Part shown: in pieces, positions 39,128 through 43,844 of the stretch
Numbering within the stretch: the first letter of the stretch is position 1
Layout: each line of letters opens with the position of its first letter
Position numbers and translations under genes: made by a program
Notes under the pieces: generated by a model
The model's input: the letters and a program-made list of their open reading frames with translations, nothing else
Databases searched by the model: none
Told to the model about the DNA's origin: nothing
Assembly (NCBI GenBank): GCA_011523515.1
Contig: WTGO01000054.1
Location: 1 to 64,000, forward strand
DNA: 64,000 nucleotides
Direction of reading: 5' to 3'
From: Chloroflexota bacterium
GTDB lineage: Bacteria > Chloroflexota > Anaerolineae > Aggregatilineales > Phototrophicaceae

Positions 39128-40306
39128 TTAGCGAGGATAAACCCAGGTTTGGCGCCCATCGACTCCAAACGCGATCAGCAATCTACCATCATGGACGCTG
39201 GTAACCAGCAGCAGCGGTTCGTCGATATCCAGCGTATCGCTGGGCTGCAAGAGCAGCATATCACCCAGGAGCTCGGGACGATCGTCGATTTCACGCGCGT
39301 TGATGAGTTCGCCGTCGAAGCGGTCCAGCCAATAGACTTTGCCATCGCGTGATGCAACGATGACACGTTCTTCAAAGACCACTGGACCGGCGCGAATGCC
39401 GCGCTCGGCAATTTGCACCGACCAGCGCTCGCGCAAGCCGCCGCTGCTGCTATCCAACGCGTGCACATATCCGCTCAAGTCGGTCACGTAGACGATGCCA
39501 TTTTCATCCATTGCCGGCGTGCCCCAGACCCAATTCTGGGTGGCGTATTCAGCGAGGATGGCGCCGTCAAGCGAAATCTCGAAGAAGCTCTTGTTGAAGC
39601 TGCCCACGTACAAGCGATCATTGGCCAGCAGCGGCGTTGACGCGACGGCGCCGCCCAAGTCCACCGACCAAAGTCGCTGGCCGGTGGAGCGATCGACGGC
39701 GTATAAGAAATGGTCAATCGAGGCCAGGATGAGCATGTCGTTGACCAGCAGCGGCTGCGCCCAGATGCCCGCTGCGGTTGGGAAGAACCACGATTCGCGA
39801 TAGTCTTCGAGTGAGATCGCGCTGAGACCGCCGTTTTGGAAGGGTACATAAAGCATGCCGTCCGCTTCCAGCGGGCTGGCCACCACCTTGTCGACCAGCG
39901 GGAAGGATCGCTGCACCTCGACGACGACTGAATCTACGCGCAACAGCCTGCGATTATGATCGGCGACGAGTACAGTCTCGTCATCGATTCTGATCGGCAG
40001 GGTGTGAAATTGCGCGCCCTCGTTCTCGGACCCGCGCAGCACCCAGGTACGGGGATTGTTGTCGTTGTCGCGCAGCACATCGCCATTGAGCGGGTTCACC
40101 AGACGTGCCGGCGCGCCGTTGGACGGGGTGAGCAAGGTGACATCGTTATTGTAGGATAGCGCGATATGTGTCTGGCCGTTTAAGTCGATCAGACCGACCG
40201 CTGGCCAACTGACGCCCATGCGCGCGCCAACGCAGGCGGGCAGCGTGAGCAGCAGCAACGCCAGAAGCAGCAGAAATCCAAGTCGCCTGCGCATGTAGCT
40301 ATACAA
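39128..40306 (-). CDS. Beta-propeller (PQQ-like) lipoprotein in the rpmH cluster
   Basis: A 392-residue lipoprotein. A basic start (MRRR), a run of about 17 Leu-rich residues and the lipobox LLTLPAC (Cys near residue 25) indicate lipid anchoring. The mature part has PQQ/BamB-like propeller blades: TGQRLWSVDLGGAVAS, NDRLYVGSFNKSFFEIS, GIVYVTDLSGYVHALDSSSG and REGKVYWLDRFDG-like units. The TTG start at 40306 has AAGGAG (40318-40313) exactly six bases before it, whereas the ATG at 40294 is 18 bases away, so TTG is favoured. It sits between yidD and yidC, where no such gene is standard. Confidence 0.85.
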   Translation of the reverse strand: MYSYMRRRLGFLLLLALLLLTLPACVGARMGVSWPAVGLIDLNGQTHIALSYNNDVTLLTPSNGAPARLVNPLNGDVLRDNDNNPRTWVLRGSENEGAQFHTLPIRIDDETVLVADHNRRLLRVDSVVVEVQRSFPLVDKVVASPLEADGMLYVPFQNGGLSAISLEDYRESWFFPTAAGIWAQPLLVNDMLILASIDHFLYAVDRSTGQRLWSVDLGGAVASTPLLANDRLYVGSFNKSFFEISLDGAILAEYATQNWVWGTPAMDENGIVYVTDLSGYVHALDSSSGGLRERWSVQIAERGIRAGPVVFEERVIVASRDGKVYWLDRFDGELINAREIDDRPELLGDMLLLQPSDTLDIDEPLLLVTSVHDGRLLIAFGVDGRQTWVYPR

Positions 40307-41057: not shown

Positions 41058-41383
41058 GTTCTGAGCCTTTATCTTGTTCCGTTCCAGGTCACAAGGGCGC
41101 AGTATAGCTGAGCAAGCAGTGACGGTCAACTGTGTTTTGGCTTTGTCGCGCTCCAGGACACTGGCATTAATCCATCTGCACAAGAGCGCGAGATTGGCCA
41201 TCTCGCCCGGAGCCATGGGCCGAAAACGCGCCGGAACGCATTGATTTGGCGCAAGTTGCGCTTGACGAGCAGCCCCGCCGTCCTGTAGGATTGCTGCGGC
41301 GTAGCGCCTTCCGTCACACCAGCTTTTCTTGAGCGCCTCGATTTTCGCATCACGCCATGTACGTCTTCGGGAGATGATTTACC
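41058..41383. other. Divergent gap before rpmH and the unknown cassette
   Basis: This 326-base gap holds the rpmH promoter near 41101-41129. I find no TTATNCACA-type DnaA boxes and no dnaA gene, although this cluster is often near oriC. I see nothing else I can name in the rest. Confidence 0.55.
41101..41129 (-). promoter_or_regulatory. Candidate rpmH promoter
   Basis: On the minus strand TTGACC (41129-41124) is followed at exactly 17 bases by TATACT (41106-41101). The start would be near 41094, about 37 bases before the ATG. This is one of the best promoter matches in the window, as expected for a ribosomal gene. Confidence 0.75.
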
Positions 41384-42961
41384 TTGCTGCCAGCACAACA
41401 TTGGGCTTACAGCTTCTCAATCGGCGCGGATGACATCGAAAGCATAACCAACTTACTGCTTGAAAAAGAATCTCCCCTATCCTCGGTCGAGCTCGCCACT
41501 GAAATCATCAAGGCGCGCGAAGATCATAGGCGGCGAAAGCTAGCGCAGAAATACCTGGACGCTAAAGTCTACCGCCCCTCCGAAACTTATGAACTTGGCG
41601 ATCGACTGACATTTTCTCAGCTGAATTACGCCACGGCCAAGGTCGTAAAACTGCGCGATGGCAAGAGCACGGATCTCCGTCCACTCCGGGTGGCCGCGGT
41701 TGAATTTGAAAGCTCCAACGGCAAGCCTGAAAGCCGCCTGCGCGAATTCGTCATCGCTTACGACCAGGACCATCCGCTAAACGACGCCGACAGCAATCGA
41801 CATCCCAGCCAGTTAAAAGGCGATTACACAGTTGACGACATCCTCAATGATCCTGACACGGATATCGTCGAACAGGTGGACGACGCCCTGGAACGCAACG
41901 CCGATCTGGTTCGCCTGGCCGGCACCTGGTTCGTGCGAGAGTTGATGCTTGAAGTCGACATAGGTCACCTGCATCTGGCCGAAGCCGTGCTCGACATGCA
42001 TGAGGGCGGCCCCTTGCGCCCGGAAGACATTTTGGACCAAATCGGCGGACTGGGCAGCGCGCCGCGCCCGCTGCAAATTTTCTCGCTAAATTATTTCATG
42101 AATCAGGATGATCGCTTTGACGAAGTGGGTCCGGCGGGTAAAGTGTTATGGCATTTGACGGAGAAATTGCCGCGTTTGGTGCGCGAAGTGCCGGCGATAT
42201 TGGAGTATGAGCCGATAGCGTTTGACCGCGCCAAACTGTCGCGCGAGATGAAGCAGTTGGAATACGACCTCGATGACGAACACTCGCCGGTAACATCGCC
42301 ACGACCTGAAGAAGAAGTCAGCCTGACCTTGATCTACCCGCATCGCCGCGTGGGCACGCTGCCGATCAATTCGGAGACCAAGTATGTCTTTCCCGCGGCC
42401 AAAACACCACGAATCGCCATTACCATGATCGACGCATTAGACAAGAAGGAATATCCCTGCTGGGTGGTGCACGAGTTTAAGTATGTAGTGGGCTTGGCGC
42501 CGATATTCCAGAAGCATCATCTGCCGGTCGGCGCTTATGTCTACTTGACGCCGACGGAAGACCGCAGCCGGATCGAAATCGAATTCGATACTTATCGGCC
42601 GCGCACCGAATGGATACCGGTCGTCGAGCGGTCCGACCGCGATCTGCTACGCTGCAAGACCGCCAAACGCGCCATCGGCGCCGATTATGATGAGATGATT
42701 ATCTTTGGCGTCACGAACTTGCCCGAAGTTGATCAGCTGGGCAAGGATTTGCTTGCCAAAGGCGCCTCCCTGGCGCAGCTGCTGGTGCATCTGGTGCGCG
42801 AACTCAGCAAGGAGAACCCGCAGGGCACGGTTCACGCCAAGATTCTCTATAGCACGCTAAACATATTGCGGCGCTGCCCGCCCGGGCCGATGTTCGCTAC
42901 CTTGGCCAACGCGCCCGAAGTCGAAGATGTCGGCGGCAACTACTGGAAACTCAGCGAATAA
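41384..42961 (+). CDS. Uncharacterised protein, first gene of an unknown cassette
   Basis: I do not recognise this 525-residue soluble protein. The N-terminus looks like a small helical (possibly winged-helix) region, followed by a segment reading PSETYELGDRLTF and TAKVVKLRDGKST that could be an SH3-like barrel. The middle is acidic and the C-terminal 250 residues mix strands and helices (YPCWVVHEFKYVVGLAPIF, then RTEWIPVVERSDRDLL). There is no signal peptide or membrane segment. It starts with TTG at 41384, with GGGAG about ten bases before it. Two more unknown genes follow within 20 bases each, so the three are probably one operon. Confidence 0.65.
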   Translation: MLPAQHWAYSFSIGADDIESITNLLLEKESPLSSVELATEIIKAREDHRRRKLAQKYLDAKVYRPSETYELGDRLTFSQLNYATAKVVKLRDGKSTDLRPLRVAAVEFESSNGKPESRLREFVIAYDQDHPLNDADSNRHPSQLKGDYTVDDILNDPDTDIVEQVDDALERNADLVRLAGTWFVRELMLEVDIGHLHLAEAVLDMHEGGPLRPEDILDQIGGLGSAPRPLQIFSLNYFMNQDDRFDEVGPAGKVLWHLTEKLPRLVREVPAILEYEPIAFDRAKLSREMKQLEYDLDDEHSPVTSPRPEEEVSLTLIYPHRRVGTLPINSETKYVFPAAKTPRIAITMIDALDKKEYPCWVVHEFKYVVGLAPIFQKHHLPVGAYVYLTPTEDRSRIEIEFDTYRPRTEWIPVVERSDRDLLRCKTAKRAIGADYDEMIIFGVTNLPEVDQLGKDLLAKGASLAQLLVHLVRELSKENPQGTVHAKILYSTLNILRRCPPGPMFATLANAPEVEDVGGNYWKLSE

Positions 42962-42977
42962 GAGCAGGTTATTTCGT

Positions 42978-43418
42978 ATGGCGCTGAATTACTTGATAAA
43001 GCCAAGTCTCGAAACCAAATTCTACATCGACTACGACTGGTGGGAGACAAGCCGCGACGACCTGCAGATCTACTTGTTGACGCACCTGTCGCAGGAGCAG
43101 CAGCAGGCGCTTGCGAGCCGGGATTTGGATGAGGTCTACGATTATGTTCATCCGGAAACCGGTGAAGTCTTTGCGCTTGACGCCTTGGGGATGGCCATTC
43201 AGGAGTCGTCCCGCAGCGACGACTTTATCAGCGATCATATTGGGCTGATCGACAGCGTGTTTCGCGCCTTCCTGGTCAACGGCAATCAGCCTTTGAATGC
43301 GCAGGAGTTGGCAGTGGCCACCGGGCGCAATGCTGCAACCATATTGAAGACTATCGGCGGTGTTCACATCTATCGCGGCATCATGCCTCACGCTCTGAGC
43401 CAGGTCTCGGAAGCCTGA
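42978..43418 (+). CDS. Uncharacterised protein, second gene of the cassette
   Basis: A 146-residue soluble protein that I do not recognise. The N-terminal half has a Trp/Asp-rich start (FYIDYDWWETSRDDLQIYL) and a conserved-looking YVHPETGEVFALDALG. The C-terminal part (VFRAFLVNGNQPLNAQELAV ending ILKTIGG) resembles a winged-helix domain. It starts 16 bases after the first gene and three bases before the third. DNA or RNA binding is possible. Confidence 0.65.
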   Translation: MALNYLIKPSLETKFYIDYDWWETSRDDLQIYLLTHLSQEQQQALASRDLDEVYDYVHPETGEVFALDALGMAIQESSRSDDFISDHIGLIDSVFRAFLVNGNQPLNAQELAVATGRNAATILKTIGGVHIYRGIMPHALSQVSEA

Positions 43419-43421
43419 CCG

Positions 43422-43844
43422 ATGGCGCGCGTAATCAATACCAATAGCCCGGGCAAGCGCCGTAGCGCCCACATGCGCACGATCGCCGAAATCCTCAGAC
43501 GGCTCAGCCAAGCGCAAGCCATCAACCAGGAAAGCAAAGACATGGCGGCCATGCTTGTCTATTGCTTGCGGGGAATAGACAGCACGGTCGAAGAGTCGAT
43601 GGTCGCTTGGGAAAAGCGCGGCTATTGGAAAAAGTCGGATGAATTTCAGCAAAAGTGGTGGTGGGCGACATTGCTCTCGAAGTCAATCGAAAAGCTGGTG
43701 CGGAATGAAGACTGGGAGCAGCTGCCGGAGACGCTGATGCAGCTCTACGCCCATGTTTCCGACCTGAAAGTGAATCGAATGACACGCGATCCCAGCACTT
43801 GGCAGGGCGCGCACCAGAAGCTGATCAACGAAATGCGCGCCTGA
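43422..43844 (+). CDS. Uncharacterised protein, third gene of the cassette
   Basis: A 140-residue protein with no recognised family. It is basic at the N-terminus (PGKRRSAHMRTIAEILRRL), mostly helical by composition and carries a WEKRGYWKKSDEFQQKWWW segment. No signal peptide, membrane segment or Cys pairs are visible. It starts three bases after the second gene. The three genes together look like a protein set that works as a complex. Confidence 0.65.
   Translation: MARVINTNSPGKRRSAHMRTIAEILRRLSQAQAINQESKDMAAMLVYCLRGIDSTVEESMVAWEKRGYWKKSDEFQQKWWWATLLSKSIEKLVRNEDWEQLPETLMQLYAHVSDLKVNRMTRDPSTWQGAHQKLINEMRA

Follow-up and report, generated by a model that had tools for sequence, protein, structure and literature searches.

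A stretch of 64,000 nucleotides from the metagenome-assembled genome of a Chloroflexota bacterium of the family Phototrophicaceae (contig WTGO01000054.1, positions 1 to 64,000; hereafter the window) carries next to rpmH three closely packed genes, here called A, B and C, which raise the question of whether they encode an undescribed system, how many of the three belong to it, and what it does. The first-pass annotation, made from the sequence, reported reading frames of 525, 146 and 140 codons with gaps of 16 bases between A and B and 3 bases between B and C, and rederivation of the coordinates reproduced these values exactly:

41384..42961, plus strand: gene A, 525 amino acids, TTG start.
42978..43418, plus strand: gene B, 146 amino acids, with a helical N-terminal part and a C-terminal winged helix in the model.
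43422..43844, plus strand: gene C, 140 amino acids.

Gene A has no earlier start because an in-frame TGA stop codon lies at 41375-41377, upstream of the TTG; the start codon is a conserved TTG or GTG, and a purine-rich GGGAG is found 10 nucleotides 5' of the TTG. Comparison with close congeners gives dN/dS ratios of about 0.07 for A (0.06-0.10 for both A and B) and mostly 0.06-0.15 for C, and therefore A, B and C are real, constrained genes, each of them under purifying selection. The product of A is acidic (pI about 5.1, median net charge -22), that of B mildly acidic, and that of C basic (pI about 8.8).

That the three proteins match no recognised family was borne out by profile searches. 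Pfam and NCBIfam yielded zero matches for A, B or C even at E = 10; PADLOC, PHROGs and PDB sequences returned either nothing or matches at noise level; and the open-access literature searched contained no description of the families. A known family as the identity of A, B or C was rejected on the strength of the library and PDB searches. A mobile or viral origin was rejected as well, the plasmid search having come back empty and no viral contig having been confirmed; the viral fold library gave no convincing match.

Homologues of A were found in 59 of 61 relatives and in 138 of 150 class genomes, and homologues of B in 59 of 61 and 141 of 150, so that each is present in more than 90% of the class genomes sampled. 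A scan of genome contigs with A retrieved close relatives only; the two named ones, labelled 'Anaerolineae bacterium' and 'Chloroflexi bacterium', are 91% and 88% identical to it. Several families are without both genes, and genomes with only A or only B mostly have the lone gene at a contig edge (B in G104, C173:23-424, and G154, C11:5-250; A in G148, C435:80). Wherever loci were compared, across dozens of families, B lies directly 3' of A on the same strand (79/79), and 83 B genes were found adjoining A. The pair is single copy and chromosomal, and is a fixed conserved pair across the class; no class-wide conserved neighbour other than A and B themselves was found in the loci compared. A recurring 'cluster 2' open reading frame near A-B is an antisense frame over B. 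One genome (G040) has a diverged second copy of A (L039:4617-6443, minus strand), with no adjoining B and with a cysteine-rich, basic extension.

The fixed close packing that the first-pass annotation attributed to all three genes thus holds for A and B and not for C, whose place beside B is limited to the window's family (L024, L025, L041, L042, L044-L046 and congeners). Other members of the order have C on another contig or at a distance, and it is also apart from the pair in the other class members examined; the expectation that A, B and C would be kept together in other genomes therefore failed, C separating from the pair outside the window's family. Since C adjoins A-B solely in that family, the A-B-C cassette is a family-level arrangement, and the conserved unit is A-B. 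C was found in 59 of 61 relatives; a search with a single sequence found it in 54 of 150 class genomes, and profile searches in 34 of 38 class genomes and in none of 263 other Chloroflexota. The earlier proposal that A, B and C form a three-subunit complex, to which C would contribute a basic accessory subunit, fits the tight A-B-C order maintained throughout the window's family, and C is itself both basic and a core gene of the class by its profile count; the proposal is nevertheless distinctly unlikely, because C is located elsewhere in all other members of the order and class examined, is present in three genomes that yielded no A (G071, G107, G459), and went undetected in Chloroflexota of other classes, which do carry B or a diverged A family (A', described below). 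C is an independent core gene of the class and not an obligatory subunit.

Gene A is preceded by its own predicted promoter and by an inverted repeat:

41252-41264: CAAG-N5-CTTG inverted repeat, overlapping the -35 element of the promoter of A.
41262..41291, plus strand: sigma-70-like promoter of A (TTGACG, 18 nt, TAGGAT), from a consensus scan.

The TTGAC...TAGGAT pattern is found upstream of A in all 22 genus members examined. The inverted repeat is found in 14 of 22 congeners and at none of 57 loci outside the genus, and is possibly an operator for autoregulation of A, a candidate that is conserved within the genus only. Only the window's family has rpmH, rnpA, yidD and yidC beside A, in divergent orientation. 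The position beside the ribosomal cluster, which had been offered as a clue to function, is accordingly given no weight, because it is family-specific, the genes are divergent and A is served by a promoter of its own; a link to the ribosomal cluster was rejected on the same grounds. The rpmH-rnpA-yidD-yidC-jag cluster also contains, between yidD and yidC, a gene for a PQQ/BamB-like beta-propeller protein (39128-40306, minus strand), which is retained in the window's family.

The structures of A and B were predicted with AlphaFold2 from 57 homologues of A (mean pLDDT 93) and 64 homologues of B (pLDDT 88). Besides a small barrel and a B3-like pseudobarrel, the model of A has three winged helices, and B has one; winged-helix-like pieces, which had been noticed earlier in two of the three proteins, are thus confirmed by prediction:

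41402..41551, plus strand: A residues 7-56, N-terminal helical or winged-helix-like piece (AlphaFold2 model).
41555..41755, plus strand: A residues 58-124, small beta barrel (AlphaFold2 model).
41951..42169, plus strand: A residues 190-262, second winged helix (VIA-align Z 7-8).
42305..42697, plus strand: A residues 308-438, B3-like pseudobarrel (VIA-align, Foldseek).
42719..42952, plus strand: A residues 446-523, C-terminal winged helix (AlphaFold2 model).
43236..43400, plus strand: B residues 87-141, winged helix (AlphaFold2 model).

The small barrel has a weak chromo-barrel-like Foldseek match to MSL3 over 41 residues only; the second winged helix is strongly acidic (net charge about -12); and the C-terminal winged helix contains the conserved motif PQGTVHAKTLYSAVNxxRRCPPGPIF in the alignment. 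A fold search of the PDB with B found nothing above Z 4.9, which leaves the whole of B with no good match and is no proof of a new fold.

The pseudobarrel of A aligns by VIA-align with the B3 domains of the plant proteins VAL1, FUS3, ARF and LEC2 at Z about 10-10.7 and rmsd 2.2-2.9 A over 93-98 residues (for VAL1 and FUS3, Z 10.7 and rmsd 2.5-2.6 A over 95-96 residues), scores that clearly exceed the generic winged-helix rows at 7-8, and Foldseek with A returned 5yzy, 6j9a, 6fas and 6j9b, all of them B3 domains, with a probability of 1.00. The alignment covers 95 of the 106 residues of the VAL1 B3 domain, so that the predicted pseudobarrel fold spans most of a B3 domain. At the level of sequence, Pfam assigned none of the 51 A members scanned to the B3 family, and a PDB profile search with A retrieved no B3 chain at E up to 10. 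In the absence of a sequence-level B3 match, residues 308-438 of the modelled protein are described here as B3-like by fold and not filed as a member of the B3 family. Like the plant domains, the predicted pseudobarrel has a similar order of arm, strands and helices, and a GxLxLP...FP...D..G...GL...L..G pattern can be recognised by eye; unlike them, it sits inside a bacterial winged-helix protein, its predicted C-arm is shorter, and the sequence-profile match is missing. A strongly conserved motif, YPHRRxGTLPL, occupies the position of the B3 N-arm in the alignment, and the domain is slightly positive (median charge +3). To our knowledge, this fold occurs in plant transcription factors and restriction enzymes, and its bacterial examples are all from restriction enzymes. 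The fold of A resembles the B3-like domains of LlaJI.R1, the NgoAVII R protein and BfiI (Z 6.9-9.3, with LlaJI at 9.3), which belong to patchily distributed defence nucleases, whereas A is a class core gene with no nuclease domain. In NgoAVII the B3 domain binds the recognition site (PMC4267653).

Relatives of A and B in other Chloroflexota classes indicate how the parts of the system can be separated. The diverged family A' (L084-L103), which has no description in the libraries searched, is 540-940 amino acids long, and its match to the A profile spans positions 137-504 of A; a profile-profile comparison by hhalign gives a probability of 99.7% over 362 columns. A' has in common with A the second winged helix, the B3-like barrel and the C-terminal winged helix; it differs from A in having neither the fused N-terminal piece nor the small barrel, in having an N-terminal domain of its own, with a long linker, and in having a HEAT-repeat partner in place of B. 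In L097, L099, L100 and L103 the linker, which lies between the N-terminal domain and the core and varies in length between species, is rich in proline, glutamate and valine, with repeats such as EPEPVV. By inspection, 16 of 20 loci have directly 5' of A', usually with a 4-bp overlap, a conserved micro-gene of 41-54 codons (for example L102:6868-7018, minus strand, upstream of A'), and a profile built from ten of these also recovers the micro-genes of L088, L093, L092, L098 and L101; such genes are easily missed by gene callers. The micro-gene product resembles the N-terminus of A (residues 7-56; hhalign probability 91%), and the micro-gene, A' and the fused A form a split/fusion series. On its 3' side A' is usually followed by a gene for a HEAT-repeat protein (Pfam HEAT_2, 5.5e-31), which is in one reading frame with A' in L094.

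B is found in other classes as an open reading frame of 116-242 amino acids (L124-L143) with neither A nor A', and in a sample of 301 genomes of the phylum the 39 genomes with A' and the 36 genomes with B outside the class did not overlap. In 15 of 20 of these B relatives there is a CxxC motif, in most cases accompanied by C or CC further along the chain, and this points to a putative metal site that has been largely lost in the window's genus; the matching positions in the B of the window are S38, Q41 and S77. The neighbours of B in several loci of other classes are ruvC-ruvA-yebC or pheT-moeA-like genes. Within the distribution of A-B, families f40, f44, f53 and f54 (L064, L065, L068-L071) have an A that consists of the N-terminal half, about 250 residues, and B still adjoins it, and in family f13 (L066, L067) an A-type N-terminal half is joined to an A'-like B3-like half. 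Because truncated A is still followed by B, the occurrence of B goes with the N-terminal half of A, from which the B3-like half can be separated as a module.

Taken with the fixed gene pairing, these modular losses make an association of A with B likely, and we place the contact in the N-terminal half of A because B stays beside that half where A is cut to about 250 residues, and because no sampled genome combines B with A', in which the B3-like half is present. Constant pairing of two genes is also compatible with a shared function that involves no physical contact. In the proposed mechanism, A and B would bind each other via the N-terminal half of A. With less certainty than this contact, the B3-like domain of A may read a DNA site through its basic N-arm (PHRR), the winged helices may stabilise DNA or contact RNA polymerase, and the complex may regulate or organise many loci. 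The models make DNA binding by A-B plausible; against it, A is acidic, B is mildly acidic and the B3-like domain bears little positive charge. The first-pass suggestion of a complex for nucleic acid handling fares similarly, being a function that we infer for acidic proteins and yet a plausible one, to which the B3-like fold adds strength. The reading that we prefer, and to which we give about an even chance, is that A-B is a housekeeping two-gene operon of Anaerolineae-type Chloroflexota encoding a two-protein DNA-associated factor of transcription or of the nucleoid. A broader reading, tentative and with the balance somewhat against it, is that a sequence-reading core transcription or nucleoid factor of bacterial B3 type exists throughout the Chloroflexota, in which a B3-fold reader is combined with winged-helix partners, either B or a micro-protein together with a HEAT-repeat protein.

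Two serious rivals explain the winged helices in other ways. If A-B were a factor associated with RNA polymerase, in the manner of Firmicutes delta or TFIIE, its acidic winged helices would touch the polymerase and little or no sequence-specific reading of DNA would be needed. The second winged helix of A is about 70 residues long and strongly acidic, as in HARE-HTH domains and the delta subunit, and aligns with Staphylococcus aureus delta in its RNA polymerase complex at Z 7.4, with RpoE at Z 7.3, and with TFIIE at Z 8.3 (5fyw chain X) and 7.2 (1d8j); core, single-copy genes are also what such a factor would have. HARE-HTH domains have an extra helix inserted in the helix-turn-helix core (PMC11037411). 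These Z values, however, are tied with those of many unrelated, generic winged helices, A carries four further domains, only 1 of 57 A members matched Pfam HARE-HTH (PF05066), at E 0.12 and not at the curated threshold, and the B3-like domain is left unexplained, so that we regard a polymerase-associated factor as unlikely. If A-B were a protein-protein scaffold, its winged helices and B3-like barrel would have a structural role only and contact no nucleic acid; this would suit the acidity of the proteins and the scaffold-type HEAT-repeat gene that usually follows A', and tandem winged helices are common in scaffolds; but we know of the B3 fold in DNA-reading domains only, and the basic arm motif PHRR is conserved, and a scaffold is judged rather improbable.

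The likeness of A to restriction enzymes, among which both B3-like and HARE-type domains are found, invites a further explanation, that A-B derives from a restriction or defence module and has been domesticated; the recognition domains of LlaJI, NgoAVII and BfiI are among the fold matches of A (PMC4267653). This is very improbable: the genes have no effector in or beside them, neighbours encoding a nuclease, methyltransferase or helicase are not conserved in the class, matches to PADLOC and to plasmids are absent, and the distribution is that of a core, single-copy gene pair, neither patchy nor mobile.

A-B is a genuine unannotated core system whose constituent folds are already known. The curated libraries searched contain no entry for these three families, although most genomes of a large and abundant bacterial class possess them, and library-based annotation therefore leaves A, B and C blank. 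If A reads DNA via its B3-like domain, the fold would extend to a bacterial housekeeping regulator, which would be a chromosomal use of the bacterial B3 fold outside restriction and a candidate general regulator in a phylum whose regulation has been little studied, and A-B would offer a tractable two-protein target for work on gene regulation in the Chloroflexota.
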